Origin: Nitrospira sp.
GTDB lineage: Bacteria > Nitrospirota > Nitrospiria > Nitrospirales > Nitrospiraceae
Length of the DNA: 64,000 nt
NCBI GenBank assembly: GCA_036984305.1
Contig: BQWY01000001.1
Location: 868,001-932,000 of the forward strand
Reading direction: 5' to 3'
Both the position numbers and the translations under genes were made by a program. The notes under the pieces are model-generated. The model worked only from the letters and a program-made list of their open reading frames with translations, did not search any database and was not told the DNA's origin. Shown in pieces: positions 38,402 through 53,601 of this stretch. Positions within the stretch are counted from its first letter, which is position 1. The number at the start of each line of letters is the position of its first letter.

Positions 38402-39418
38402 ATGGCTGTCCCGATGTCCCAGGCCTATCGTGTCGCAAAGTATGTCCTTACCCAAAAGCTGAGAGGGGTCAAACGCTATCCTCTCGTCTTGATGCTGGAG
38501 CCCCTGTTTCGATGCAATCTTGCTTGTGCGGGCTGCGGAAAAATTCAATATCCCGACCATGTATTGGATCGCCGCTTGACGCCTGAACAGTGCTGGGCTG
38601 CAGCCGAGGAGTGCGGTGCGCCGATTGTCGCCATTCCCGGTGGAGAGCCGCTCATTCATCCGGAGATTTCCCGGATCGTCCAAGGATTGGTCGCGCAGAA
38701 GCGTTATGTTTATGTCTGTACTAATGCGATTCTCCTGGAGCGAAAGTTAAAAGAGTTCAGCCCATCGACCTACCTCACATTCAGCGTGCATATGGACGGA
38801 CTGAAGCCCGAGCACGATCTGGCCGTCTGTCGCGATGGCGTGTATGAGGTGGCCGTGAAAGCGATCAAGGCCGCTTTGGCAAACGGTCATCGGGTGACGA
38901 CCAACACGACGCTGTTCGACGACGCCAATCCGGACCGCGTGCGGGAATTCTTCGATGAGATGATGGATCTGGGCGTGGAAGGCATGATGATCTCGCCGGG
39001 GTATAGCTACCAGAAGGCACCAGATCAACAGCATTTCTTAAAGCGGGCGCGGACGCGCGAGTTGTTCGCAAAAATCCTGAGCCGGCCGAAAAGAAAATGG
39101 CAATTCAATCAGTCTCCGCTATTCTTGGACTTTCTCATGGGGCGGAAAGAGTACCAATGCACGCCTTGGGGAAATCCGACGTACAACGTGTTTGGGTGGC
39201 AGAAGCCGTGCTACCTCCTGCAAGAAGGCTATACCAAAACGTTCCGCGATCTGATGGACACGACCGCGTGGCAAGACTACGGGACCAGCAAGAACGAAAA
39301 GTGCGCCGAGTGCATGGTGCATTGTGGATACGAGGCGTCGGCGGTCGAAGACACGTTTGGAAGCCTCGGGGGATTTGCGCGAACCGCGAAGCTGACGCTC
39401 TTACCGACGTCTCGTTAG
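38402..39418 (+). CDS. hpnH: Adenosylhopane synthase, radical SAM protein HpnH
   Basis: The 338-residue radical SAM enzyme adds the 5'-deoxyadenosyl group of SAM to diploptene, making adenosylhopane, the first step of hopanoid side-chain extension. The cluster motif is C38-x3-C42-x2-C45 (FRCNLACAGCGKI). HpnH hallmarks are KRYPLVLMLEPLFRCNL, IPGGEPLIHPEI, SVHMDGLKPEHD, SPGYSYQKAPDQ and the C-terminal cysteines CAECMVHCGYE. It is transcribed alone with the downstream unknown gene, while shc and hpnG lie 10 kb upstream. Confidence 0.95.
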   Translation: MAVPMSQAYRVAKYVLTQKLRGVKRYPLVLMLEPLFRCNLACAGCGKIQYPDHVLDRRLTPEQCWAAAEECGAPIVAIPGGEPLIHPEISRIVQGLVAQKRYVYVCTNAILLERKLKEFSPSTYLTFSVHMDGLKPEHDLAVCRDGVYEVAVKAIKAALANGHRVTTNTTLFDDANPDRVREFFDEMMDLGVEGMMISPGYSYQKAPDQQHFLKRARTRELFAKILSRPKRKWQFNQSPLFLDFLMGRKEYQCTPWGNPTYNVFGWQKPCYLLQEGYTKTFRDLMDTTAWQDYGTSKNEKCAECMVHCGYEASAVEDTFGSLGGFARTAKLTLLPTSR

Positions 39419-40186: not shown

Positions 40187-40726
40187 ATGAAACGTCGAGC
40201 CCAGCGTAGTTGGAGTCGGGTTGCGAATCGGTCTGTTTGCCTCAGTGTCATTACACTGGGACTTGCGGCCGGAGTCACATGGGCTACCCACGAGGCGGAT
40301 CATCGGTTTACGGTCGAGGGTTTTGTTTGCGAACTGTCCGGCGCCCCGTCGAAAAAGACTGAGGTCGTTGTCAAGGATACGCGGGTGAACGTCGGCGCAA
40401 CCATCGAGACGGATGAACGGGGTTATTACCGGACTACGCTTCATTTGCACAATGACAACCTCGGTGATCCCGTTCTCGTCGCGGCGAATCGAGAAGAGCA
40501 GCGCATCAAGGTCGAGTTCGATCCAAACGATCTTGAAAGCGAGCGAAAAGCCAGGGTCGATTTTGGGACAGGGTGCCAGCAGGCCGCGCCCGATGAAGTA
40601 CCGGGGTGGGTCTGGTATACGTTGGGGGCCTTGGGTGTCGGAACTGCAGCCTTAGTGGCAGGGCGGATGATTCAGAACCAGCGTCGAGCCGAACGTGCAA
40701 AGGGGCATAGAAGGCAACGAAGATAA
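40187..40726 (+). CDS. Exported protein with carboxypeptidase-regulatory-like domain and C-terminal TM
   Basis: The 179-residue protein has a signal sequence (SVCLSVITLGLAAGVTWATHE), a beta-sandwich domain like carboxypeptidase regulatory or transthyretin-like folds (FTVEGFVCELSGAPSKKTEVVVKD ... ETDERGYYRTTLHLHNDNLGDPVLV) and a C-terminal membrane helix (WVWYTLGALGVGTAALVAGRMI) with a basic cytoplasmic tail. The two Cys (FVCEL, GTGCQQ) may form a disulfide. It lies directly before the respiratory cluster; it may be an assembly or accessory factor, but the function is unknown. Confidence 0.72.
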   Translation: MKRRAQRSWSRVANRSVCLSVITLGLAAGVTWATHEADHRFTVEGFVCELSGAPSKKTEVVVKDTRVNVGATIETDERGYYRTTLHLHNDNLGDPVLVAANREEQRIKVEFDPNDLESERKARVDFGTGCQQAAPDEVPGWVWYTLGALGVGTAALVAGRMIQNQRRAERAKGHRRQRR

Positions 40727-40973: not shown

Positions 40974-41558
40974 GTGGCTACGATTTTCCAGGGGTGGACA
41001 CGGAGGATGGTGCTAGCGGCGGGCCTCGGATTGACCGTAGCGGCGAGTGGATGTGGAGAGGGCGGAGAGGGTCCAATCGTGCCGCCTCCGCCTGCACCAC
41101 CGGAGTATGCAGACAAACACATGCCGGAGGGCTGGTGGTCCGATCCGAAGATTGTTGAAGAGGGTAAGCAGATCTACATCGGTGCGAAAAACCCGGACGT
41201 CAACTGTTCGAGCTGTCATGGTAAGGATGGAAAGCCGGTCAAGGCGGGTGCCCGAGATTTCCGTACTGGCGAGCGGATGAAGCTCTATTCGGACTCGGTA
41301 TGGTTTTGGCGAATTTCCGAAGGCGTACCCAATACCAAGATGAAAGCGTGGAAGAGCAAGCTCCCCGAGGAGGATCGATGGAAAGTCATGGCCTTCGAAC
41401 GTACCTTTGGACTTCCCGGTAAGGGATGGGATCCTGGTAAGCAAGCGTGGGTCGACGCGAAGGATGTCGGGATGGCCGCTCCGGCACCGGCTGGGGAGGC
41501 GAAGCCGGCGGCAGAAGAGAAGCCGGCGGCAGAAGGGAAACCGGCAGAGGGCAAGTAA
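40974..41558 (+). CDS. Cytochrome c lipoprotein, monoheme
   Basis: The 194-residue protein has a twin-Arg-containing lipoprotein signal (WTRRMVLAAGLGLTVAASGC) and one c-type heme motif C78-SSCH in NCSSCHGKDG, with a distal Met candidate in GVPNTKMKAWKSKL. The C-terminus is a Pro/Ala/Glu-rich tail (PAAEEKPAAEGKPAEGK). GTG 40974 is chosen because AAGGAG lies 7 nt before it; the frame upstream has no ribosome site. It opens the respiratory cluster, 35 nt before the first bd-like gene, and would deliver electrons to or from it. Confidence 0.88.
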   Translation: MATIFQGWTRRMVLAAGLGLTVAASGCGEGGEGPIVPPPPAPPEYADKHMPEGWWSDPKIVEEGKQIYIGAKNPDVNCSSCHGKDGKPVKAGARDFRTGERMKLYSDSVWFWRISEGVPNTKMKAWKSKLPEEDRWKVMAFERTFGLPGKGWDPGKQAWVDAKDVGMAAPAPAGEAKPAAEEKPAAEGKPAEGK

Positions 41559-41593
41559 CCTCGAACTGACTTGTGGTGAAGGGGCGACGAGAC

Positions 41594-43300
41594 ATGATGA
41601 CAAGTTGGCGGCGCACTCTGGTTCTTGCACTCGGTATTGTGGCTGCGTGGGTGTCACTGGGCCATGCCCAAGTGCCCGATGCGCCGTCAGTAGAGTTTCC
41701 CTATACAGGAAACCGCACAGCGGTTTGGATCGTGGCCCAACTGCATATCCTGTTCGCAGGATTCATACTGGGAGCCCCGATTTTCGTCGTGATCTCGGAA
41801 TGGTTGGGGTACCGGAAGCAGGATCCCCGGTACGATCGCCTGGCCAAGGAGGTCACGAAGGTGACCGTCATTCTGTATAGCATGACGGCGCTGACTGGGG
41901 GACTCTTTATCTTTGTGCTGTTGGCGACGTATCCGCAGTTCACCACCTGGCTCATCAACCACTTTTTCCTCATCTTTGCGGTGATCTACCCACTCCTCTT
42001 TATCGGGGAAACGATCATTCTCTATCTCTATTTCTATACATGGGATGCGATGAAAGGGGAGAAAAAGGCCCGGCATATTGCGCTGGGGGTGCTGCTGAAT
42101 CTTGTGGGAACCATCACGCTCTTTGTCATCGACGGCCCAACCTCCTTCATGAATACGCCGGCCAAGGCTGAAGGTGAATCGATCTTCGAGTTCATCCAGA
42201 CGGCCACCATGTGGGACAAGGTGTTCAACTATAGCTGGATGCCTATGAACCTGCACCGGCTGGTCGGAAACGTGACCTTCGGAGGTTTTATCGCCGGTCT
42301 GATTGCTGCGTATCAGTATCTGGGGTCGAAGAAGGACGAAGAGCGGGCCTATTACGACTGGATGGGCTTCGTCGGGAATCTCATTGGGGTTGGTGCGTTG
42401 TTATTCCTTCCGTTCATGGGTTACTTGCTGGCTTATGAACTATGCGACTACGACGCGTCGATCTGCCCGTATATGATGGCCGACCAGCTGTCAATGTTCT
42501 TCGAGATGCAGGGCGCGATGGTGGGGCTGATTTTCTTAGCAAGTAATTATTACATCTGGTTGAGCATGAAGCGAATCGAGGGGGTTGAACGGGTGAGGAT
42601 GTCCCTCTTTACCCTGATTGCCATGGTAGCGACCCCGTTTGTCATGACCTGGGCCTGGACAGTTTTCCCCGCGCCAGATCCCCGGTCTCTCATCTATCTC
42701 GCACCGCTCGTACTGCTGCCGCCAATAATCGGCAAGTTTCTGCCATGGACCGTGTCCTCGCGAACCTTCATTCAGGTTGGCTTTCTCATGGTAGTAGTCG
42801 GCAATGCAATTTGGATGACGCCACACGGATTTGTGCCGACCGGAGCCAAGCTCGTCGAAGAATTGGAGTTGCCGTCTGAATGGAACTTCCTGGCGCTTAT
42901 GCCGGCGAAGAACGCGGCCGCATTTACGCTCGTATTTGTCACTGTGCTGAACTATATCATGTACAACCGGGCGATCCGGCAGGGTACGATCGTCTGGGGC
43001 AAGATCGATTTTGCATCGCAATTTGTTCTGATCTTCTTGGCATTCAGCGCCATTTGGACGATGGGCCTGATGGGCGCAGTCCGATCGCTGCTCCGCAAGT
43101 ACTTCCACACGTACAATCTGTTGCCGGATTTTACGCCTGAGTCATTTACGCCAACCTTGGCCTACTCGGCGTGGTGGATCACCGGAATCACTCTGGTGTT
43201 CTATGCGGTGGTGAGTTTCGCCATCATCGTGACGTTGCGCGCGGCTGACCCGAAGGGACAAGTGCAGGAAGCAAAAGCGGTTCCTGCGGGGGCCAAATAG
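41594..43300 (+). CDS. Cytochrome bd-like oxidase subunit I homologue (first copy)
   Basis: The 568-residue polytopic protein (about 14 helices) belongs to the cytochrome bd ubiquinol oxidase subunit I superfamily. Candidate heme ligands are His in WIVAQLHILFAGF near the start, PMNLHRLVGN, and GNAIWMTPHG. A cleavable-looking N-terminus (LVLALGIVAAWVSLGHAQ) precedes helix 1. Unlike CydA it has no separate CydB neighbour. It is a clear paralogue of the gene at 47398. ATG 41594 follows AAGGGG at 9 nt. Whether it reduces O2 or serves as a heme-b electron carrier is not settled by sequence. Confidence 0.87.
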   Translation: MMTSWRRTLVLALGIVAAWVSLGHAQVPDAPSVEFPYTGNRTAVWIVAQLHILFAGFILGAPIFVVISEWLGYRKQDPRYDRLAKEVTKVTVILYSMTALTGGLFIFVLLATYPQFTTWLINHFFLIFAVIYPLLFIGETIILYLYFYTWDAMKGEKKARHIALGVLLNLVGTITLFVIDGPTSFMNTPAKAEGESIFEFIQTATMWDKVFNYSWMPMNLHRLVGNVTFGGFIAGLIAAYQYLGSKKDEERAYYDWMGFVGNLIGVGALLFLPFMGYLLAYELCDYDASICPYMMADQLSMFFEMQGAMVGLIFLASNYYIWLSMKRIEGVERVRMSLFTLIAMVATPFVMTWAWTVFPAPDPRSLIYLAPLVLLPPIIGKFLPWTVSSRTFIQVGFLMVVVGNAIWMTPHGFVPTGAKLVEELELPSEWNFLALMPAKNAAAFTLVFVTVLNYIMYNRAIRQGTIVWGKIDFASQFVLIFLAFSAIWTMGLMGAVRSLLRKYFHTYNLLPDFTPESFTPTLAYSAWWITGITLVFYAVVSFAIIVTLRAADPKGQVQEAKAVPAGAK

Positions 43301-43344
43301 GGCGTGCCACGTGTTGGAAAGGGAGACTGAGGAGGGATGTTGAC

Positions 43345-44151
43345 GTGATACGAAAGCTCATCGCCGGCATCGTAGTGGGCGTCGTGTTATTCGTAGCTGC
43401 GAAGGTCTTGGGTTTTCCCGAGATCTTCCAATTCATGTTTTTCGCGTACGCCATGTTGGGCATGTTGGTCTACATGCTCCTCGATGCTCCCTCCATGAAA
43501 CCGATTTCAGGCGGCAAGGCCGTGGTGGCCTTAGTCGCGTTCTATGTCGTTTTGTCGGTGTTCTATATCGGCGGTGCTTCGCTGTTGCCGCAATATGATC
43601 CTGAAGATGAAAAGGGTAAAATCGACAAGCTGCTGGCAGCGAAGCGAAAAAAGACCGAACTTGGGAAAACCGAGGATCTTATTGCTCGGGCCAAGGCGCT
43701 GGATGAGAAGGCAAAAGCTCTCCAGGATCGCTTACAGAATCTTGGAAAGGATGTCATCCAGGAAGGGTTGCCGGCGATCGAGACAACAACCTCCAAGCCG
43801 GGAGGCGGGGGGCCGTCTGCCACTGGCGATGAACTCGAACGGCTGGGCTTCGAGCAATGGCAGCTCCAGGAATGCTACAACTGCCATAAGTTGAGGGGCG
43901 AAGGCGGAAAGAAGCGCGGCCCCGAACTGGACAATATCGGCGCGTACATGACCGCCAAGGAACTAAAGGAAAAGATCCTCGATCCGCAGAGCTACATGGC
44001 GGAAGGATTCGAGAAAGATTACAACAAAAAGAAGATGCCGGATAAATACAAAGATCTCATGGAAGACAAGGATGTTGAAGTGTTGGCCGCATGGCTGGCG
44101 ACGCTGAAGAATCCGTCCGTCAACACGCCCAAGCCGATCAAAAAGAACTAA
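43345..44151 (+). CDS. Membrane-anchored monoheme cytochrome c with coiled coil
   Basis: The 268-residue protein has three N-terminal helices (about 5-22, 26-47, 57-77), a coiled-coil spacer (about 88-135) and a C-terminal cytochrome c domain with C177-YNCH (QECYNCHKLRGEGGKKRGPELDNIG) and a candidate distal Met in DPQSYMAEGF or KKKMPDKY. GTG 43345 has GGAGGG about 8 nt upstream. The coiled coil would hold the heme away from the membrane. It lies between the bd-like gene and the Rieske gene and probably belongs to the same complex. Confidence 0.86.
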   Translation: MIRKLIAGIVVGVVLFVAAKVLGFPEIFQFMFFAYAMLGMLVYMLLDAPSMKPISGGKAVVALVAFYVVLSVFYIGGASLLPQYDPEDEKGKIDKLLAAKRKKTELGKTEDLIARAKALDEKAKALQDRLQNLGKDVIQEGLPAIETTTSKPGGGGPSATGDELERLGFEQWQLQECYNCHKLRGEGGKKRGPELDNIGAYMTAKELKEKILDPQSYMAEGFEKDYNKKKMPDKYKDLMEDKDVEVLAAWLATLKNPSVNTPKPIKKN

Positions 44152-44152
44152 C

Positions 44153-45094
44153 ATGCATCAGCCAAAGCTTAAATCGAAAGTTCGTGCCGCGGATCGTGAC
44201 CTTGGAGAGATTACGCGGATCATTATGGATCCGCTGTCGCACGAAATCAGCCACGTGGTGGTTTCGCTCAATGGGTCGGGCAGTCCGGAGCGCTCAGTGC
44301 CCTATGCACAAGTTCAAGTTGTCTCCGACGACCTCGTCCAGCTTCGTATCCCGGCCTCGGAGGTTGAGCGCCTTCCAGTATTTACCCGAGATCGGTTTGT
44401 TAGCGTCCACGATGTCGAGATTGCGCACCTCGAAGACAATTTGCATGTCGAGGCGGGGGAAGTGCTCGTTCCGTTGCCGGAGCTCGAGCGAAGCGTTCCG
44501 CGTCGAAACTTCTTCGCAAAATTCACCCATGTGATCGGGCTCTTTATCGGCCTTCCTCTTGCTTGGCCTGTGCTGCGCTACTTGATGAAGCCCATGTACC
44601 AACCGTTGGACAATACCTGGCTCAATGTCGGCAATGCGAGCAAGATCAAGAGTGAAGACGTGGGGTTCCAATACAAATTCAAACGCATGGTCAAAGAAGC
44701 CTTCATGCCGGAGGAGGAGATCGATAAGAACGTCTGGATCGTCAAGGCGACCCCCAAAATACTTGAGCAGGTGTACCAGGGGAAAGATATGGAGTTCCAT
44801 GACGAAAAGGGGCGCGTGGTATGGACCAACAAGAAGAACGTGCCCTACGTGGCTTTTTCCGGAAAGTGTCCACACCTTGGCTGCGGATACAAGTGGCGCA
44901 AGCACAAAGTCCTGGGGGAGGTCTTCCTCTGTCCGTGCCACCTCAGCATCTATGACGCAGCAGGCATCGTGCTGGACGGTCCTGCGCCACGTCCGCTGGA
45001 CCCGTTACCAATCCAAGTGGCGTCCAACGGGGATATCAAGATTATCGATATGGAATTTAAAGCCGGAACCAAGGCCCAGACGCGAATCATCTAA
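44153..45094 (+). CDS. PRC-barrel-like domain fused to Rieske iron-sulfur protein
   Basis: The 313-residue protein has an unusual order: an N-terminal PRC-barrel-like beta domain (about 5-95; RAADRDLGEITRIIMDP, HVVVSLNG), a membrane helix (HVIGLFIGLPLAWPVL, about 128-145), and a C-terminal Rieske domain with C239-P-H241-L-G-C244 and C260-P-C-H263-L-S, the ligands of a 2Fe-2S cluster. It would oxidise quinol together with the cytochrome b encoded next (TAATG overlap). PRC-barrels usually appear in photosynthetic reaction centre H subunits and RimM; a fusion to Rieske is rare in my knowledge. Confidence 0.9.
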   Translation: MHQPKLKSKVRAADRDLGEITRIIMDPLSHEISHVVVSLNGSGSPERSVPYAQVQVVSDDLVQLRIPASEVERLPVFTRDRFVSVHDVEIAHLEDNLHVEAGEVLVPLPELERSVPRRNFFAKFTHVIGLFIGLPLAWPVLRYLMKPMYQPLDNTWLNVGNASKIKSEDVGFQYKFKRMVKEAFMPEEEIDKNVWIVKATPKILEQVYQGKDMEFHDEKGRVVWTNKKNVPYVAFSGKCPHLGCGYKWRKHKVLGEVFLCPCHLSIYDAAGIVLDGPAPRPLDPLPIQVASNGDIKIIDMEFKAGTKAQTRII

Positions 45095-46203
45095 TGAGCG
45101 CCCCAACGACTACCACACAACCGTCCGCAGTAGAGAAGGTCATTGAATTCATCGACGAGCGCGTTGGCCTGCATAAACTGCAGGCCAAGATGCTCAATGA
45201 GCCGATCCCGGGCGGCTCTCGCTGGGCGTACGTCTTCGGGTCTGTGCTCCTGTTCATCTTTATTATGCAGGCCGTCACCGGCATCCTGCTGATGTTTTAC
45301 TACGTCCCGAGCGCCGATCACGCGTATGCCAGCACGCAGTACATTATCCACGAGGTGGACTATGGCTGGTTTCTTCTGAGCTACCACTTCTGGGGATCCA
45401 GCGCGATGGTGGTGTGTGTCTTCGCGCATATGTCCCAGGTATTTCTCTGGGGAGCCTATAAGAAGCCACGTGAGCTTATTTGGCTGGTGGGCTTGGCTCT
45501 CTTTGGGCTTGTCATGACATTTGGGTTCACCGGGTATTTACTTCCCTGGGATCAGCGTGCTTATTGGGCGACGACCGTCGGCGTGGAGATCATGGACAAG
45601 ACTCCGGTCATCGGCGATTTCATGGCCCGCTTTCTCAAGGGCGGACCAACCCCTGGACAGATGACGTTGAGCCGCTTTTTCGTCATCCACGTCATGGTGC
45701 TCCCGGCGGCCCTGATGGGACTTGCCGGACTGCACATTTTTCTGTTCCGAAAAGCCGGTCCGGCCGGACCGTTTCGCGGCAGTTCCCAAGAGTTGTTGGC
45801 GAAGGCGGATTACTTTTTCCCGAGACAAATCTGGAAAGATATCGTCGCCATGGTCGCAGTCTTTTTCACCACGGCCTGCCTGGCATTCTGGGAGCCGGTG
45901 GTTTTGCTTGAGGAGGCTACGCCGGATCCCGGCGAGTATCATCCCGAGCCGGAATGGTATTTCCTATTCTTGTTTCAGATGTTGCGGTTGAAGGTGTTTG
46001 CCGGCGAGTTCGGGCAATTCCTCGGCGCCGTCGGGCTGCCTGGATTGTTCATGTTGCTCCTAGCCGCGCTTCCATTCATCGACACGAGCCCAGAACGCAA
46101 CATTTTCAAGCGGCCTATATCCTTGGTGGGCTGGATCGTCGTCATGGCAACCATTCTGATCTTCACGGTCTCAGCCATTATCAATCGTGAGTTCCTCGAC
46201 TAA
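45094..46203 (+). CDS. petB: Cytochrome b (bc/b6f type, full-length)
   Basis: The 369-residue cytochrome b joins the N-terminal b6-like part and the C-terminal subunit-IV-like part in one chain. Two His pairs bind the b hemes: HFWGSSAMVVCVFAHMSQ and IHVMVLPAALMGLAGLHIF. The PEWY quinol-site motif is present in PEPEWYFLFLFQM. Also typical are GFTGYLLPWDQRAYWA and RWAYVFGSVLLFIF. It forms the quinol-oxidising core with the upstream Rieske protein; start and stop codons overlap. Several cytochromes c in the cluster may serve as the c1/f partner. Confidence 0.95.
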   Translation: MSAPTTTTQPSAVEKVIEFIDERVGLHKLQAKMLNEPIPGGSRWAYVFGSVLLFIFIMQAVTGILLMFYYVPSADHAYASTQYIIHEVDYGWFLLSYHFWGSSAMVVCVFAHMSQVFLWGAYKKPRELIWLVGLALFGLVMTFGFTGYLLPWDQRAYWATTVGVEIMDKTPVIGDFMARFLKGGPTPGQMTLSRFFVIHVMVLPAALMGLAGLHIFLFRKAGPAGPFRGSSQELLAKADYFFPRQIWKDIVAMVAVFFTTACLAFWEPVVLLEEATPDPGEYHPEPEWYFLFLFQMLRLKVFAGEFGQFLGAVGLPGLFMLLLAALPFIDTSPERNIFKRPISLVGWIVVMATILIFTVSAIINREFLD

Positions 46204-46227
46204 ATAACCTCAGATTGGCACCGTAGC

Positions 46228-47118
46228 ATGACGGACGCACAGAGTATGTCGCCACTCAAAACAGGATTAGCCGTCGTTTGGTACAGCTTCTGGACGGGAG
46301 CTCCCGTTAAATTGGCCCTCTGCCTTCTCTTCATGGCGATGGGCACGCATCCGTGGGAGATGCCGGGTGTGGGCCTGTTGCTTCTTCTTTCCATCCCCAT
46401 CGACATGTGGGCCATCGGGCTGGTATCGAGGACGCTGTTTTTGGAGAAGTTTCGTGTCACCCCCCGTGATGGCCTCGGAATCAGACTGTGGCTCCACATC
46501 ACCATTGTCAATGCCATCTGTCTGCCACTGATCTATTACATCCAGAGTGCCGTGACAGATGTGGCCAAATCGGTTGCCGCCAGCATTATGGAAACGGACC
46601 TCATGAAGGACATGCCCGTCGCCGAGCGGATCGGAATCGAATTGACCGCTTGGGGCAGCGTGGCGACGGTGGTCCTCCTGGTACTTCTTATGATTTGGCT
46701 GACAGTTATTGGACGTGTCGTGCTCCGCCAGGTGGCCACAGCGTCTCCGACCCAGGAGAGCTATCAGGATCTGATCACCCAATGGGACCTGATGCGAGTG
46801 CCAACCGATCAGACCTTGATGTTGACCGCCGTCACAGCGGCAGGTGTTGTCTTAACTTTTGTCTTCTGGGGTGCGATTCCGAACACGACGCCCCACCCCC
46901 ATGAAGATTATAAGCTTCCCGTCGCGAAGGCGGCTGGGCCATTTAAGCCGATCGAGTCGCTGAATAAGGATGAGAAAGTGCTGGCGCAAATCGACGCGCA
47001 AATCACGGCTCTGGAGGCCAGACAGGTCGAGCTCGAAACCGAAAAGAAGAAAACCGGAAAGGGAGCCTCGCCCAGAGGAAAAGCACCTGCAGCGGCGACC
47101 AAGGCTGACAAGCCCTAG
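46228..47118 (+). CDS. Unknown membrane protein of the respiratory cluster
   Basis: The 296-residue protein has about five helices (APVKLALCLLFMAMG, GVGLLLLLSIPIDMWAIGLV, LWLHITIVNAICLPLIYYIQ, WGSVATVVLLVLLMIWLTVIGRV, LMLTAVTAAGVVLTFVFWGAI) and a cytoplasmic or periplasmic C-terminal coiled coil (ESLNKDEKVLAQIDAQITALEARQVE) with a Lys/Ala tail. No heme-binding motif is seen. It lies 24 nt after cytochrome b and 279 nt before the second bd-like gene. It may be a structural subunit or an assembly factor; I do not recognise a family. Confidence 0.8.
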   Translation: MTDAQSMSPLKTGLAVVWYSFWTGAPVKLALCLLFMAMGTHPWEMPGVGLLLLLSIPIDMWAIGLVSRTLFLEKFRVTPRDGLGIRLWLHITIVNAICLPLIYYIQSAVTDVAKSVAASIMETDLMKDMPVAERIGIELTAWGSVATVVLLVLLMIWLTVIGRVVLRQVATASPTQESYQDLITQWDLMRVPTDQTLMLTAVTAAGVVLTFVFWGAIPNTTPHPHEDYKLPVAKAAGPFKPIESLNKDEKVLAQIDAQITALEARQVELETEKKKTGKGASPRGKAPAAATKADKP

Positions 47119-47397
47119 TGATTCACCGCGAGAATGGTGGATTTGCCTGTTCAATCAGCCTTCCTGGCAAGTCATTCGGGCGATGGAGCGGGGACGACGG
47201 ACCTTCCGCCAAGCCCTCCGATGCATCAGGAACGCGGTGCAGGGAGGCGGGGCTCACTCGATCGTCGGCTCAAACGGGTGCTCCTTCAGACGTATGGCTA
47301 GCTCGAATGCGGGTGAGAACAGGCCGATTCTTGGAGGGGGAAACCGCGTCTGTGTGATGAATAGGCTGTGACGCTTCGTGGAACAAGGAGAGTAGGT

Positions 47398-49302
47398 ATG
47401 ACTTGCCACCTCGATACTCTAGCACAAGCGGTCCGACGCATCGGGGCCGGACGTTTGCTTGGGGCTGTGGCCGTGCTTCTGGCAATCGGGCTTGCCACGC
47501 CGCTGCTGACCTTTGCCGAGGAGGCGGGTGCTCCGGCGCAGACGGCATATCGAGATATCCCCGGCATAGGCAGTCGTAACATCGTTTGGATCATCGCCCA
47601 GCTTCACCTGCTGTTGGCTGGGTTCGTGTTAGGTGTGCCCATTTTTGCATGGGTCTGCGAAGTTGTTGGATGGAAGGGCGGCGATAAGCGCTACGATAAG
47701 TTGGCAAAGGAATTTACGAAGCTCCTTACGTCGTCTTATGCCACGACGGCCCTCTTTGGCGGGATTCTCCTCTTTATGCTGATTGCGTTTTATCCCAAGC
47801 TGATGATGTATTTGACGGACATCTTCTTTCCGTCGTTCATCGTCTACTGCTTGTTATTTCTGCTCGAGACCGCCACGCTCTACCTCTACTGGTACGGTTG
47901 GGATGCCATGTCGGAAGGCGGGGCGAAGACGTTTCACGTGTTTCTTGGTTTCCTGCTCAATGTCTTCGCATTTTTCATCATGGTAGTCCCGAATTCCTGG
48001 GCCACGTTCCAAGCGAGTCCGGTGGTCATTGCCGAGGGGTCGGATCTCGCGCGGGCATGGGCTGCCACCTGGAATCCGACATGGTGGCCCGTCAACATTC
48101 ATCGCCTTATCGCCAACGTGGTGCTCGGCGGGTATATGTGCGGGGCGTATGCGGGAATCAGGTACCTTTCGGCCAAGACCACCGAGGAACGGTTCCACTA
48201 CGACTGGATGGGGTATGTGGGCAATTTCATCGGCGTGTTCGGGTTATTGCCCCTTCCCTTCGCCGGCTATTGGTTGATGCGGGAAATCTATCAGTACAAC
48301 CAGCAAATGGGCATCACCCTCATGGGAGGATTCCTGTCCTGGCTGTTTATCCTCCAGGCCATGTTGATCGGGGTGCTCTTCCTTGGATCGAACTATTATT
48401 TCTGGTTAGGCATTACCCATCGAATTCCTGGTTCGGAGATGCAGTATCGGAAACCCATTTTGGCCATGCTCGTCGTCCTGCTGCTTTCCCTGGGCGTCTG
48501 GATGACCCCGCACTCTCTGGTGGCCAGTTTGGAAGAGGCACGAAAAATGGGAGGCACGCACCATCCGCTTCTCGGTGTCTTCGGCGTCATGTCCGCCAAA
48601 ATGACAGTGGCTAACTTGATGATCTTAGTCACCTTCATGAGCTTCATCATGTACTGGCGGGCGGGGAAGCAAGAGACCGCAACCTGGGCTAAGTTCGCGA
48701 AGGCCATTATGAACGCGGTGCTGTTCATTGCGGGAATTGCCGTCATCATTTTGGGCGTCTGGGGCTACTTCGTTCCGGCCATCGTCCGGATCAACTATTT
48801 TTCCACCTCGCAAGTACTGATCGTATTATTTGTCATGCTCACGATTACTCCCCTGACCGCGCTGCTACTGAAGAGCGCGAGGACCACTACGGAAATGGTG
48901 TGGGGGATCATGCCGCCGCGTGCGGGTTATGCCCTTGTCTTGAACGCCGTCATGGTCATCCTGCTGATGACCCTCATGGGCTATGCGCGCTCGTCGTCTC
49001 GCGTCCACTGGCACGTGTATGGGGTTGTGCGAGATTCGTCTGAGTACGCCTTTTCTCCGGCATTAGGCTATGCCGCGGCCTTCATGGCATTAAATACGTT
49101 CCTATTTTGCCTGTTGGTCTCGTTCATTTTTTGGGTGGCGACAATGGGCGATAAAGGAAAATCCAAGGGGTACGATGATCCGAAAGGGAAATTGGCACCA
49201 GGCGCAATCCCAGCGATGGCTGGCGGTTCTCCGGCCCTGGAGACGATGGAGACAGCTGCTCCGCCATCCACCCCACGCGCTGGAAGGGAATCTGATCTAT
49301 GA
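47398..49302 (+). CDS. Cytochrome bd-like oxidase subunit I homologue (second copy)
   Basis: The 634-residue paralogue of the 41594 gene shares WIIAQLHLLLAGFVLGVPIF, PVNIHRLIANVVLGG, YDWMGYVGNFIGV and GVWMTPHS. It has a signal-like N-terminus (LLGAVAVLLAIGLATPLLTFAEE), about 14 helices, and a longer C-terminus (DKGKSKGYDDPKGK onward) rich in Ala/Pro. AAGGAGAG precedes ATG 47398. The stop overlaps the following cytochrome c gene (ATGA). Having both paralogues in one cluster with a Rieske/cyt b pair suggests division of labour within one or two complexes. Confidence 0.87.
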   Translation: MTCHLDTLAQAVRRIGAGRLLGAVAVLLAIGLATPLLTFAEEAGAPAQTAYRDIPGIGSRNIVWIIAQLHLLLAGFVLGVPIFAWVCEVVGWKGGDKRYDKLAKEFTKLLTSSYATTALFGGILLFMLIAFYPKLMMYLTDIFFPSFIVYCLLFLLETATLYLYWYGWDAMSEGGAKTFHVFLGFLLNVFAFFIMVVPNSWATFQASPVVIAEGSDLARAWAATWNPTWWPVNIHRLIANVVLGGYMCGAYAGIRYLSAKTTEERFHYDWMGYVGNFIGVFGLLPLPFAGYWLMREIYQYNQQMGITLMGGFLSWLFILQAMLIGVLFLGSNYYFWLGITHRIPGSEMQYRKPILAMLVVLLLSLGVWMTPHSLVASLEEARKMGGTHHPLLGVFGVMSAKMTVANLMILVTFMSFIMYWRAGKQETATWAKFAKAIMNAVLFIAGIAVIILGVWGYFVPAIVRINYFSTSQVLIVLFVMLTITPLTALLLKSARTTTEMVWGIMPPRAGYALVLNAVMVILLMTLMGYARSSSRVHWHVYGVVRDSSEYAFSPALGYAAAFMALNTFLFCLLVSFIFWVATMGDKGKSKGYDDPKGKLAPGAIPAMAGGSPALETMETAAPPSTPRAGRESDL

Positions 49303-49946
49303 GTGAAGTTGCACTCCTGCAGTTGATCGGCCTTTCCGTGGTCGGGATCGGGATCGCCATCTTGCTCTTCATCTCGGCTCGCTTTGTGAGAGTGATCGGC
49401 TTCGTCATGATCGTGCTCGGATTGTTCTCGTTAACGGCGTTGGCCGTGCCACAGATGGCGTCGTTGCCGCCCGCGGAGGAAAAAATCGATCTCGCGACCA
49501 TCAAGACACCCAGCGACATGGCCGCGATCGGTCAGAAAATTTTCTTCAGCAAGGGCCAGTGCGCGTTGTGTCATTCCATTGGGCCGAGCGAATCCGCGCG
49601 CTGCCCGGATCTCAAAGGCATCGGCGCCAAGCTGACGAAAGAGTTTATCTACGAGAGCCTTACCCAACCGCAGGCGTACATTTATCAGGACTATCGGCAC
49701 GAGGGGCCGCCGAAGGAGTATCCGGCCCGCATGCCCTATATCAATAAGAATCCGATCGGCCTCTCAAAAAACGAAATTCTGTCGGTGATCGCGTTCCTGC
49801 AGCAGATGAGCGGAGAACCCATTACCGTCACCATGGCCGAGTTGGAGTCGTCAGGATCACAGCCGTCCACCGCTCCCGCGCAAAAGGCCAGCTCTGGTGA
49901 TCCGTCAGCCATTCAGCACGTAGCACAGGCTGTCACACCGCGATAG
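49299..49946 (+). CDS. Membrane-anchored monoheme cytochrome c
   Basis: The 215-residue protein begins with two helices (LIGLSVVGIGIAILLFISARFV and VIGFVMIVLGLFSLTALAVP), followed by a cytochrome c domain with C88-ALCH (KGQCALCHSIGPSE) and a candidate Met ligand in YPARMPYINK. The C-terminus is Ser/Ala-rich. It starts within the stop of the second bd-like gene and so is expressed with it. It would pass electrons between the bd-like protein and a soluble or membrane partner. Confidence 0.88.
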   Translation: MSEVALLQLIGLSVVGIGIAILLFISARFVRVIGFVMIVLGLFSLTALAVPQMASLPPAEEKIDLATIKTPSDMAAIGQKIFFSKGQCALCHSIGPSESARCPDLKGIGAKLTKEFIYESLTQPQAYIYQDYRHEGPPKEYPARMPYINKNPIGLSKNEILSVIAFLQQMSGEPITVTMAELESSGSQPSTAPAQKASSGDPSAIQHVAQAVTPR

Positions 49947-49972
49947 CGAGGGGACGAGGAGAGGAGACCGCG

Positions 49973-50680
49973 ATGGGAACTGGAGTGTTAACCAAAGCCT
50001 TGATCCTCATGCTGGTCATGTGGGTGTTCCTCAAGTTTGGGATGCCCCTGTTCACTGCGCCACTACCCAATAGTTTGATTCTGCTGTATCTCATGCTGAC
50101 GGCATCGGGCATTGTTATCATGAGAACGTTCAGCGCCGCCGATAAGGAGGAGTTTTGGGGCCCGATTTCCAAGTTCATTAGTGGCGAGAGCGGCGGCGCG
50201 TTGCGCATGGCCGTGCTGGCCTTCTTTCCGTTGCTGATCGGGTGGCAGACCTATGGGAGTACCGCCCCAAGCGACGAGCCTCCCGCCGAGAATCGTACGA
50301 TTCATCCGGCTCCTCCCGGCGAGTACACGGGGCTGGCGAACCCGGTTCCCAATACGCCGGAAAATATCATGACCGGGAAGGGCCTCTATGCGGCATTCTG
50401 TTCGCCATGCCACGGCGGTAACTTCGACGGCAAAGGTGTCGCAGCCAAGGGGTTCAATCCACCTCCAGCCAATTTCTCCGACCCGACCACTATCGCGATG
50501 TTGCAAGAGAGTTATCTGTTCTGGCGTATCAAGAAGGGCGGAGTTGGATTGCCGATCGAAGGCATGCCCTGGAAGTCAGCCATGCCACGGTGGGAAGTAG
50601 AATTGCCGGACGAATGGATCTGGAAGATCATCATGGGCGAATATGACGGTGCGCATCAAAAGCCGCGCACCTGGGAGTAA
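49973..50680 (+). CDS. Membrane-anchored monoheme cytochrome c, second type
   Basis: The 235-residue protein has three helices (ALILMLVMWVFLKFGM, LILLYLMLTASGIVIM, RMAVLAFFPLLIGWQTY) and a C-terminal cytochrome c domain with C143-SPCH (CSPCHGGNFDGKG) and a candidate Met ligand in GLPIEGMPWKSAMPR. It resembles the helix-plus-cytochrome layout of the 43345 gene but lacks the coiled coil. GAGGAGAGG lies just upstream of the ATG. It follows the previous cytochrome by 26 nt. Confidence 0.87.
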   Translation: MGTGVLTKALILMLVMWVFLKFGMPLFTAPLPNSLILLYLMLTASGIVIMRTFSAADKEEFWGPISKFISGESGGALRMAVLAFFPLLIGWQTYGSTAPSDEPPAENRTIHPAPPGEYTGLANPVPNTPENIMTGKGLYAAFCSPCHGGNFDGKGVAAKGFNPPPANFSDPTTIAMLQESYLFWRIKKGGVGLPIEGMPWKSAMPRWEVELPDEWIWKIIMGEYDGAHQKPRTWE

Positions 50681-50738
50681 ATATTGTGGAGTGGATCCAG
50701 CAGCTCACCCGAGCGTGGGAGGGCGGAAGAGGGCAGAC

Positions 50739-51572
50739 ATGCTGATGAAGACTGGAAGGGTATATCCTAAGCTGTTGATCCTCGGCGTCGGTCTCGGGAG
50801 TTTCCTCTGCCTGGCAGCAGAGGGTGTCTTTGCCCAGGAAAGCGTCGCGGTCAGAGCCCAACTGGTCAAGGGGAGCTTACCTGCCGATGACCCTTCGGCT
50901 GCGGCTTGGAGTCAAGCCCCAGCTTCAGAGTTCCCCATGTCTCCCCAGGTCCATTGGAAAGATCGAATTCAGGCCGTCACTGTGAACTCCGTAAAGGTGC
51001 GCAGCCTTCACGACGGGAACTCCGTTGCGATCATGCTCGAATACGACGACCCAACCCAGGATCCTGATGATGCGGCTGCCCTCGAGTTCATGGTGGGGGA
51101 CAAGAAAGCCCACTTTGCTCACGGCCAACCAATGCTTCAGGTGGAGGGTGGCCCCGTCAATATTTGGTACTGGAAAAATAAGGACAACAAGGGAGTAGAC
51201 ATGACGGCGAAGGGCTTCGGGACGCTCAAAGCCCAGCCCCATCAGGATGTGACTGCCAAAGGCGTCTACGAAGGGGGAAAATGGAAGGTTGTCTTCTCCC
51301 GATCCCTTGCCACAGGCAACGTGGATGAGGATACGCAGATCAAGCCTGGTGATTTTATCAACGTCGCGTTCGCCGTGTGGGACGGGCAGAAACTTGAAAG
51401 CGGCGAAATCAAAGAGCATGGCTCGATGAAGGCTGTGTCCTCGTGGTGGTATTACCGTGCCGAGCCACCACCCGATTATTCCGCCTATTGGTATGCATTG
51501 CTGGCGATGGGGATCGCCGCGGCATTCGAATTTTTCCTGATTCGAAATCTGAAGAAAGGGGCGACGGCATGA
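50739..51572 (+). CDS. Ethylbenzene-dehydrogenase-type heme b protein with C-terminal anchor
   Basis: The 277-residue protein has a signal sequence (LLILGVGLGSFLCLAAEGVFA), a beta-sandwich domain of the ethylbenzene dehydrogenase gamma / DMSO-reductase-family heme subunit type (about 35-235; VNSVKVRSLHDGNSVAIMLEYDD, GGPVNIWYWKN, GGKWKVVFSRSLATG, PGDFINVAFAVWDGQ), and a C-terminal helix (YWYALLAMGIAAAFEFFLI). Such domains bind one heme b and shuttle electrons for molybdoenzymes such as nitrite oxidoreductase, but no molybdoenzyme gene is here. ATG 50739 follows AGAGGG. Stop overlaps the diheme cytochrome start. Confidence 0.83.
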   Translation: MLMKTGRVYPKLLILGVGLGSFLCLAAEGVFAQESVAVRAQLVKGSLPADDPSAAAWSQAPASEFPMSPQVHWKDRIQAVTVNSVKVRSLHDGNSVAIMLEYDDPTQDPDDAAALEFMVGDKKAHFAHGQPMLQVEGGPVNIWYWKNKDNKGVDMTAKGFGTLKAQPHQDVTAKGVYEGGKWKVVFSRSLATGNVDEDTQIKPGDFINVAFAVWDGQKLESGEIKEHGSMKAVSSWWYYRAEPPPDYSAYWYALLAMGIAAAFEFFLIRNLKKGATA

Positions 51573-52582
51573 ACGCACGGGCATTCGTACGCTCCCTGTC
51601 CATTGCCGGTGCGGTCTTCTGCGTTGTCGGCGCCACCAGTTTCGTGGGGTGCGCGCTGTTTCAAAGCGAGCAGGTCGCGAAAGGACGGGAACTGTATAAT
51701 CACTACTGTTCGCATTGCCACGGCGAAAATGGACGTCAGAACGAAGGGTACAACTGGTCGTCAATGCCTGATCCGAAGCCGAAGGACCTGGCGAACAAGT
51801 CCGAAATGTCCACGTTCACGGATCGGGAAATCTTCGACACCATTTCACGCGATATGAAGGACACGAGCCCGGAAGTGGGAGATAAAATTGGCGACGACGA
51901 GTTTGGCGTCCCCACGATGCCGACCTTCAAGTATACACTCGCGGAAGAGGAAATCTGGTCGGTTGTCGCGTACGTGCGGACGTTGCACGGCATGAAACTG
52001 ACCTTCAACATCGAAGAGCGGAAGAAGGAAATCGATCGCGCCCTTGACGAGGCGCAGGCCCGGTTCGATGAAGCCAAGAATGCCTACGATACAGCCGAAC
52101 AAAAGGCGAATGACGAGGCGGAGAAGAGCGGAAAAGACGTCGACGACGAGGCCTATGCCAAAGAAATGGCTGCCCTCGGCACAGCAAAGAAGGAGCTCGA
52201 CCAAGCCAAGAACGCGCAGGAGAACTTCGCCAAGCGTCCAAAGTATGCTCAGATTCAACGCCCCGATCTCACGATGAAGCCCGAACAGGCCAGTGAATTA
52301 GCTTCGCTCGGCAAGCGGTTGTACTCGAATAAATATGGCTGCAATGCATGCCATGCCCTGGGGGAGGAAGGCGGGAAGGTTGGGCCCGCGCTGGATCGTG
52401 CGGGATTTAGATTGAATCCTGTTTGGGTCTACCGGTGGATCAAGTATCCACAGGCCATGAAGGGCGAGACACGGATGCCGAATCTCGGTATCAGCGATCC
52501 AGATGCGAAGGCCATCAGCACGTACTTAAGCACGCTGCGAGCGCCACGACCCGAACAAGTAGCCGACAAGCCTGGGAGCTGA
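51569..52582 (+). CDS. Diheme cytochrome c lipoprotein with long coiled-coil insert
   Basis: The 337-residue lipoprotein (signal ending VGATSFVGC) has two cytochrome c domains: heme 1 at C47-SHCH (HYCSHCHGENG) and heme 2 at C258-NACH (YGCNACHALGEEGGKVGPALD). They are separated by about 80 residues of highly charged helix (RKKEIDRALDEAQARFDEAKNAYDTAEQKANDEAEKSG...) that forms a coiled coil. The coil could hold the two hemes at a fixed distance or dock another subunit. Coupled to the heme b protein by ATGA; it closes the cluster. Confidence 0.88.
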   Translation: MNARAFVRSLSIAGAVFCVVGATSFVGCALFQSEQVAKGRELYNHYCSHCHGENGRQNEGYNWSSMPDPKPKDLANKSEMSTFTDREIFDTISRDMKDTSPEVGDKIGDDEFGVPTMPTFKYTLAEEEIWSVVAYVRTLHGMKLTFNIEERKKEIDRALDEAQARFDEAKNAYDTAEQKANDEAEKSGKDVDDEAYAKEMAALGTAKKELDQAKNAQENFAKRPKYAQIQRPDLTMKPEQASELASLGKRLYSNKYGCNACHALGEEGGKVGPALDRAGFRLNPVWVYRWIKYPQAMKGETRMPNLGISDPDAKAISTYLSTLRAPRPEQVADKPGS

Positions 52583-52710: not shown

Positions 52711-53601
52711 TCAGACGAAACCGAGCGCAATTCCAGCGAGTAGAATCCCCCCGACCCAAACATGCTGGGCGAAGAGGCGAAAGGCTTCCTGCCCTTCACG
52801 TATCGAACGGACCCGCCACGCCTGCCACGCCAAAAACACCCCGGTTCCGAGGAGACCGGCATAGAGCCCCTGGCCAGCTCCCGTGCGCCATCCTACCAGC
52901 GTGAGGCCGATCACAAGTCCCATCTCGCAGATTCCCACCGCAATCCACGTGTGATCGCGAAAAAACAATGCCGAGGATTTCACCCCAATACGACGGTCAT
53001 CGTCACGATCTTGGAGCGCATAGATTGTGTCGTACGCCACGGCCCAACACACGGTCGAGAGAAAGACGATCCATGCAGAGAGATCAAGTTGTTCGCGCAC
53101 GGCAGCCCAGGCCATGATGCCTCCCCACCCAAACGCAATCCCGAGTACGGCCTGGGGAATGGGGAGGATGCGCTTGGCCAGAGGGTATGCAGCCGCTAGG
53201 GCCACGGCGATGAGGCTTAGCCAGCGGGCGAGGGGTGGGAGCAGTGACAGGAGCCCGGCAGCGGCAGCGAGCAATGCCCCTAGAGCAGCAAGGGCCTGAG
53301 GTACAGTCAATTCACCTGAGGCCAGCGGACGGGTGCGAGTCCTCGCGACTTGGCGATCAATCCGACGATCGGCCAGGTCGTTCAGAATCACGCCGGCACT
53401 CCGCATCAGGAAGGCACCTGCGGAAAAAATAATGACGAGCGACCAGGGTGGTCGTCCCCGGCTGGCGAACCACAGGGACCATAGTGAGGGCCAAAGAAGG
53501 AGCCACGTCCCCGATTGATTGTTCAAGCGAATGAGCCGAGCGAGGGAGCTCCACGACCCGCTGTTCCGCGAAATGGGATCCGGGATTGCCGGGGCGCGCA
53601 T
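52711..53601 (-). CDS. ubiA: UbiA-family prenyltransferase (4-hydroxybenzoate type)
   Basis: The 296-residue membrane enzyme attaches a polyprenyl chain to an aromatic acid in quinone synthesis. The two Asp motifs are seen: NDLADRRIDRQVARTRTRPLASG and DTIYALQDRDDDRRIGVKSSA, with about eight helices. It matches the 4-hydroxybenzoate polyprenyltransferase branch, which also includes MqnP of the futalosine menaquinone route, so mqnP is an equal possibility in an organism that probably uses menaquinone. It stands alone, convergent with the respiratory cluster. Confidence 0.9.
   Translation of the reverse strand: MRAPAIPDPISRNSGSWSSLARLIRLNNQSGTWLLLWPSLWSLWFASRGRPPWSLVIIFSAGAFLMRSAGVILNDLADRRIDRQVARTRTRPLASGELTVPQALAALGALLAAAAGLLSLLPPLARWLSLIAVALAAAYPLAKRILPIPQAVLGIAFGWGGIMAWAAVREQLDLSAWIVFLSTVCWAVAYDTIYALQDRDDDRRIGVKSSALFFRDHTWIAVGICEMGLVIGLTLVGWRTGAGQGLYAGLLGTGVFLAWQAWRVRSIREGQEAFRLFAQHVWVGGILLAGIALGFV

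Follow-up and report, generated by a model that had tools for sequence, protein, structure and literature searches.

The window, a stretch of 64,000 nucleotides of DNA that was analysed as a whole, is part of a 4.35 Mb genome that is 99.97% complete, and the named relatives at the locus described here all belong to Nitrospira. Between positions 40974 and 52582 of the window, eleven genes with the same direction form a cluster, in the order c1, bdA, c2, Rieske, cytochrome b, p6, bdB, c3, c4, eb, c5 (Table 1). The initial annotation had correctly described the genes as co-directional but had counted ten, having overlooked p6; its gene identities are borne out by the Pfam matches, namely, two to PF01654 (CydA-like), one to PF00355 (Rieske), a cytochrome b (PF00033/PF00032), five cytochromes c and one protein of the EB_dh type. 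The CXXCH motifs, one each in c1, c2, c3 and c4 and two in c5, correspond to six hemes c. As also stated previously, most of the genes overlap or are less than 50 nt apart, the exceptions being the c4-eb gap of 58 nt and the p6-bdB gap, which amounts to 279 nt given the most likely start of bdB, ATG 47398, with AAGGAG ahead of it. Scans of the gaps in the cluster were uninformative both for promoters (fewer promoter-like sites than in shuffled sequences) and for terminators (terminator-like sites mostly inside genes).

Table 1 Features of the cluster and its surroundings in the window, and fused bdB frames at other loci (the latter with positions within the respective locus)
Feature	Position	Strand	Description
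radical SAM/DUF3463 gene	38402-39418		upstream of the cluster
h40	40187-40726	+	small, anchored in the membrane; weak CarboxypepD_reg-like domain; outside the cluster as initially delimited
c1	40974-41558	+	monoheme cytochrome c, lipobox-like N-terminus, GTG start
bdA (bd-like_1)	41594-43300	+	CydA fold without Q loop/GRQPW; tied to the Rieske/cytochrome b genes
c2	43345-44151	+	membrane-anchored monoheme cytochrome c; candidate counterpart of cytochrome c1/f
Rieske iron-sulfur protein	44153-45094	+	N-terminal PRC-barrel-like domain, separated from the Rieske domain by one TM helix
cytochrome b	45094-46203	+	unsplit b6-like protein; PEWY and four His in line with the b6 heme ligands, heme-c(n) cysteine lacking
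p6	46228-47118	+	multi-helix membrane protein, no Pfam family; kept in Nitrospirales
bdB (bd-like_2, NIDE0901 type, OR-N2)	47398-49302	+	putative O2 reductase, HHP motif invariant
c3	49299-49946	+	membrane-anchored monoheme cytochrome c; joined to bdB in other lineages
c4	49973-50680	+	membrane-anchored monoheme cytochrome c
eb (alt_NxrC_1)	50739-51572	+	EB_dh/NxrC-like, predicted heme b protein, C-terminal TM helix
c5	51569-52582	+	diheme cytochrome c, lipobox-like N-terminus
UbiA-family prenyltransferase gene	52711-53601	-	convergent with the cluster
fused bdB frame, L094	10641-13148		
fused bdB frame, L104	9237-11681		
fused bdB frame, L092	6791-9235	-	
fused bdB frame, L090	2663-5014		
fused bdB frame, L073	808-3303	-	

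The small gene h40 is a conserved companion of the cluster; in most of the cluster variants, even the rearranged ones, its neighbour is either c1 or Rieske/c5. Almost all Nitrospirales loci have the radical SAM/DUF3463 gene, presumably HpnH-like, upstream of the cluster, although no connection in function is evident, and the UbiA-family gene lies directly downstream.

The cluster is already known from published work. The part of Mundinger 2019 (PMC6606698) on which we draw describes the same cluster in N. moscoviensis, comprising complex III_1, bd-like_1, bd-like_2 (putative complex IV), alt_nxrC_1 and several cytochromes c, reports strong transcription of the region during growth on nitrite, states putative heme b and copper sites for bd-like_2, and proposes a III-IV supercomplex in contact with NXR; that part of the paper makes no mention of p6, h40 or the PRC domain. 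The NIDE0901-type bd-like_2, denoted OR-N2, has been proposed to pair with OR-N1 as CydAA' (PMC12342949), a pairing that also appears in PMC10839748, and a related bd-like protein has been found to have no quinol-site residues (PMC3578206). In line with the mention of similar bd-like proteins in Nitrospira by the initial annotation, N. moscoviensis (L124) and N. defluvii (L129) contain the same genes in the same order, with 83% identity for bdA, 86-87% for bdB and 86-89% for cytochrome b, and nothing material distinguishes these regions from the one analysed here. The bdB gene is the orthologue of NIDE0901 (OR-N2), with 87% identity and the same gene order on the N. defluvii chromosome. The terminal oxidase cluster TO_1 of Manganitrophaceae, which we compared by description, encodes a bd-like protein together with a periplasmic cytochrome b, and this combination occurs in other Nitrospirota as well (PMC9040806).

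Within Nitrospirales, all adjacencies from c1 to c5 are kept in 80 loci wherever the contig reaches (59/59 to 78/78). Conservation of the order among relatives, on which the initial annotation had staked its reading, is thus unbroken in all unscaffolded Nitrospirales loci surveyed. In two genomes (G091 and G167), genes are partial or missing near contig ends, and these were not counted as losses; an apparent split of the cluster into parts 1.1 Mb apart in a third (G197) has its breaks at N-runs and was attributed to scaffolding. At the class level, each of the 197 sampled genomes has a bdB-type match, paralogues included; in about 178 of the 197 (a hand count from the table), the match is stronger than 1e-200 and likely represents an orthologue, and bdA is found in 166 of the 197 at E <= 1e-90.

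Across this broader range, the cluster consists of two separable modules, with bdA going with c1, c2, Rieske and cytochrome b (module A), and bdB with c3 and c4 (module B). One family of Nitrospirales, f4, possesses module A (c1, bdA, c2, Rieske, cytochrome b) without bdB: its loci read h40-c1-bdA-c2-Rieske-cytochrome b, continue with a short p6-like ORF, a c3-like gene and a c5-like gene, and lack bdB, c4 and eb in a stretch that is contiguous except for a single N in L096. No bdB orthologue was found elsewhere in the f4 genomes. The two f4 examples (L096 in G138, L097 in G159) come from genomes of roughly 2 Mb. Other families, f11-f15, have bdB without bdA, module B there including bdB, c3, c4 and the NxrC-like protein; in f11/f12, the order, which varies locally, is bdB-c3-c4-eb-c5-h40, and a different Rieske gene and a short cytochrome b gene come next. 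Wherever its surroundings are visible, bdA adjoins c2-Rieske-cytochrome b, f4 included. In one genome (G007), modules A and B are located on different contigs, both of which have long flanks and are free of N-runs, which weakens the case for an association of the modules. In f11/f12, on the other hand, bdB has been combined with complex III genes separately, which lends independent support to a functional III-IV link. The single supercomplex suggested by the initial annotation, an idea already in print and still conjectural, is thus favoured by the strict order in Nitrospirales but not by the separation of the modules outside Nitrospira, such that the parts do not form one obligate complex in every organism.

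Both bd-like proteins have the CydA fold, as identified by PF01654 and PDB sequence profiles, and a Foldseek search with their models yielded ten significant matches, all to bd subunit I. The AlphaFold models themselves are modest (pLDDT 66 for bdA and 56 for bdB), too weak for the heme sites to be placed. Five histidines are common to the two proteins and are invariant or nearly so (bdA 50/160/220/410/504, equivalent to bdB 71/181/236/373/540); among these, bdA H50/bdB H71 and bdA H220/bdB H236 align with the H19- and H186-type ligands (E. coli numbering) of the canonical CydAB quinol oxidase. Unlike canonical CydAB, the two proteins have no CydB partner and no quinol-site motif (Q loop, GRQPW), the latter being absent from all 68 bd-like sequences examined, and where canonical CydAB has its Met ligand to heme b558, bdA aligns with Gly and bdB with Ala, so that the heme complement of the bd-like proteins is uncertain. 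An extra His in bdB is a further difference: the HHP motif, with the pair H389/H390, is present in 33/33 bdB sequences but in 0/25 bdA and 0/10 other paralogues, which keep the second His only, and His 538, likewise peculiar to bdB, is found in 32 of the 33. This pattern would agree with the putative heme b and copper sites stated earlier for bd-like_2 (PMC6606698). A quick tree resolves the orthologues of bdA and those of bdB as two distinct groups; other parts of the tree have long branches. One genome also encodes, away from its cluster, a pair of adjacent, shorter and very divergent bd-like ORFs on very long branches (L076, 8075-9424 and 9428-10720, minus strand).

At nine loci, representing families f8, f11, f12, f14 and f15, bdB is fused to a c3-type cytochrome c. 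In eight of these (L090, L091, L092, L093, L094, L103, L104 and L113), the bdB frame runs on into a domain with the c3 motif GKGQCALCH or SKGQCALCH, and the ninth frame (L073) has a C-terminal CXXCH. The fusions provide direct evidence, at the sequence level, that a c3-type cytochrome serves bdB as a redox partner, a logic that may be comparable to that of caa3 oxidases. With respect to sequence, bdA and bdB are not equivalent, given that both the HHP motif and the cytochrome c fusions are confined to bdB.

The complex III part combines familiar and unusual features. As in bc1 and b6f complexes, there is a Rieske protein with the CxH..CxCH motif and a b6-like cytochrome b in which four His line up with the b6 heme ligands and PEWY is present; the heme-c(n) cysteine is missing from the alignment with b6. 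Unlike bc1/b6f, the b6-like cytochrome b is unsplit, a CydA-fold protein is encoded next to it, the Rieske protein carries a PRC-like domain, and c2, an anchored monoheme cytochrome c with no match to a c1/f family, would take the place of c1/f. The PRC-barrel-like domain is barely above the Pfam cut-off in the protein from the window and is recognized by Pfam in 3 of 14 Rieske orthologues at E <= 0.01, although the region aligns in all 14; the likely topology places the PRC domain inside, followed by one helix, with the [2Fe-2S] domain outside. Our literature search yielded no paper that joins PRC-barrel, Rieske and cytochrome b, and neither this domain nor the bdB-cytochrome c fusions were mentioned in the literature found on the cluster.

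The eb protein matches the heme b gamma subunits NxrC (7b04_C, E 3e-17) and EbdC (2ivf_C, E 3e-15) and shares with them membership in the EB_dh family as well as a Met and a Lys, Met132 and Lys231, that are invariant in 11 sequences and are candidate heme ligands, roles that we presume from the EbdC literature. Unlike NxrC and EbdC, eb is anchored by a C-terminal TM helix, and its gene adjoins that of a putative oxidase rather than nxrAB. In keeping with an earlier proposal (PMC6606698), NXR may donate electrons to the protein.

No match to COX1 (PF00115, heme-copper oxidase) was detected anywhere in the genome, so that the absence of a heme-copper oxidase noted initially holds well beyond the cluster. 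The genome does encode two canonical CydAB pairs, both at loci away from the cluster; CydB is found only there, and the bd-like subunits are left without a CydB partner in the cluster itself, as the initial annotation had it. Among 53 class members, G040 and G082, whose genomes are complete in a single contig, lack COX1 as well as CydB; both carry bdA and bdB, about 6 kb apart, and G040 holds the whole cluster (L080). Should these organisms be O2-respiring, no known candidates for the O2 reductase other than the bd-like proteins would be left. In f4, COX1, CydB and bdB are all absent.

On balance, we lean towards a model of two cooperating units, a b6f-like module A that includes bdA and a module B in which bdB is a cytochrome-c-linked O2 reductase. 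Module A (c1, bdA, c2, PRC-Rieske, cytochrome b, p6) would function as a b6f-like quinol:cytochrome c oxidoreductase, with bdA as its dedicated CydA-fold membrane subunit, and may run uphill during growth on nitrite, reducing quinone. In module B (bdB, c3, c4, the NxrC-like heme b protein and c5), bdB would replace the heme-copper subunit; electrons from the nitrite oxidoreductase or from module A would enter through eb, c4 or c5 and pass via c3 to the hemes in bdB and on to O2. In Nitrospirales, the two modules probably associate in a III-IV type arrangement. We infer the catalytic activity, the direction of electron flow and the physical association from the observed gene content, order, modularity, fusions and motif differences. 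We favour this model because of the bdB-c3 fusions, the HHP motif unique to bdB, the lack of COX1 in this genome and of both COX1 and CydB in G040/G082, the absence of GRQPW, the persistent linkage of bdA with c2-Rieske-cytochrome b even where bdB is missing, and the strong transcription of the region in N. moscoviensis on nitrite; the two canonical CydAB oxidases of this genome count against it. A version in which bdA belongs to a new kind of complex III while bdB and c3 make up a stand-alone non-heme-copper cytochrome c oxidase, with no second bd subunit, appears somewhat unlikely, and bdA could equally be a second subunit of the oxidase instead.

The latter possibility leads to the main rival of the two-unit model, in which bdA and bdB jointly form a CydAA'-type heterodimeric cytochrome c oxidase, and Rieske and cytochrome b belong to a complex III that shares the operon. 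The published pairing of NIDE0901-like OR-N2 with the OR-N1 CydA (PMC12342949; PMC10839748), the occurrence of bdA and bdB in one cluster throughout Nitrospirales and the fact that canonical bd oxidases likewise join two related membrane subunits all point in this direction. Features shared with OR-N are the CydA fold, the absence of a CydB partner and of the quinol motif, and orthology to NIDE0901. Unlike in the OR-N scheme, bdA and bdB are separable here, and HHP is present in bdB only; the role as O2 reductase is putative in both cases. We consider this heterodimer unlikely. The separate inheritance of the two genes (bdA without bdB in f4, bdB without bdA in f11-f15) speaks against it insofar as bdA is taken to be OR-N1; should OR-N1 be a different paralogue, that protein may be the partner of bdB. 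At two loci (L090 and L101), a bdB-type gene and a relative with roughly 40% identity are found in one cluster.

A looser arrangement, whereby the genes are merely co-transcribed and complex III, bdB and the NxrC-like protein are separate, with diffusible cytochrome c between them, strikes us as a real possibility albeit short of an even chance. The modules do occur apart in f4, f10 and f11-f15, and the five cytochromes c could act as carriers, whereas the strict gene order in Nitrospirales, the membrane anchors of c2, c3 and c4, and the fact that complex III genes and bdB occur together a second time, in another architecture, in f11/f12 argue for a closer connection. We regard as improbable a role of the bd-like proteins as electron carriers or quinone-reducing modules in reverse electron flow, with O2 reduced elsewhere. 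In 2013, such a role was put forward for a related protein, the bd-like one from the NXR cluster shared with anammox bacteria, which are anaerobes (PMC3578206), but it would leave the complete genomes G040 and G082 with no known O2 reductase, and the HHP motif and cytochrome c fusions set bdB apart from the paralogues of the NXR-cluster type.

The question of how the widespread nitrite-oxidizing Nitrospira manage to reduce O2 in the absence of a heme-copper oxidase dates back to the first genome, and complete genomes devoid of all other known oxidases leave the bd-like proteins as the sole candidates. The natural bdB-cytochrome c fusions offer a one-polypeptide enzyme for expression that would make tests easier, and f4 represents a natural loss of bdB with retention of bdA, so that the way of life of these bacteria would be informative. 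Under the two-unit model and judging from the sequences, the Nitrospira cluster probably encodes respiratory machinery that passes electrons among quinones, cytochrome c and O2, with a bd-like enzyme replacing the standard oxidase.
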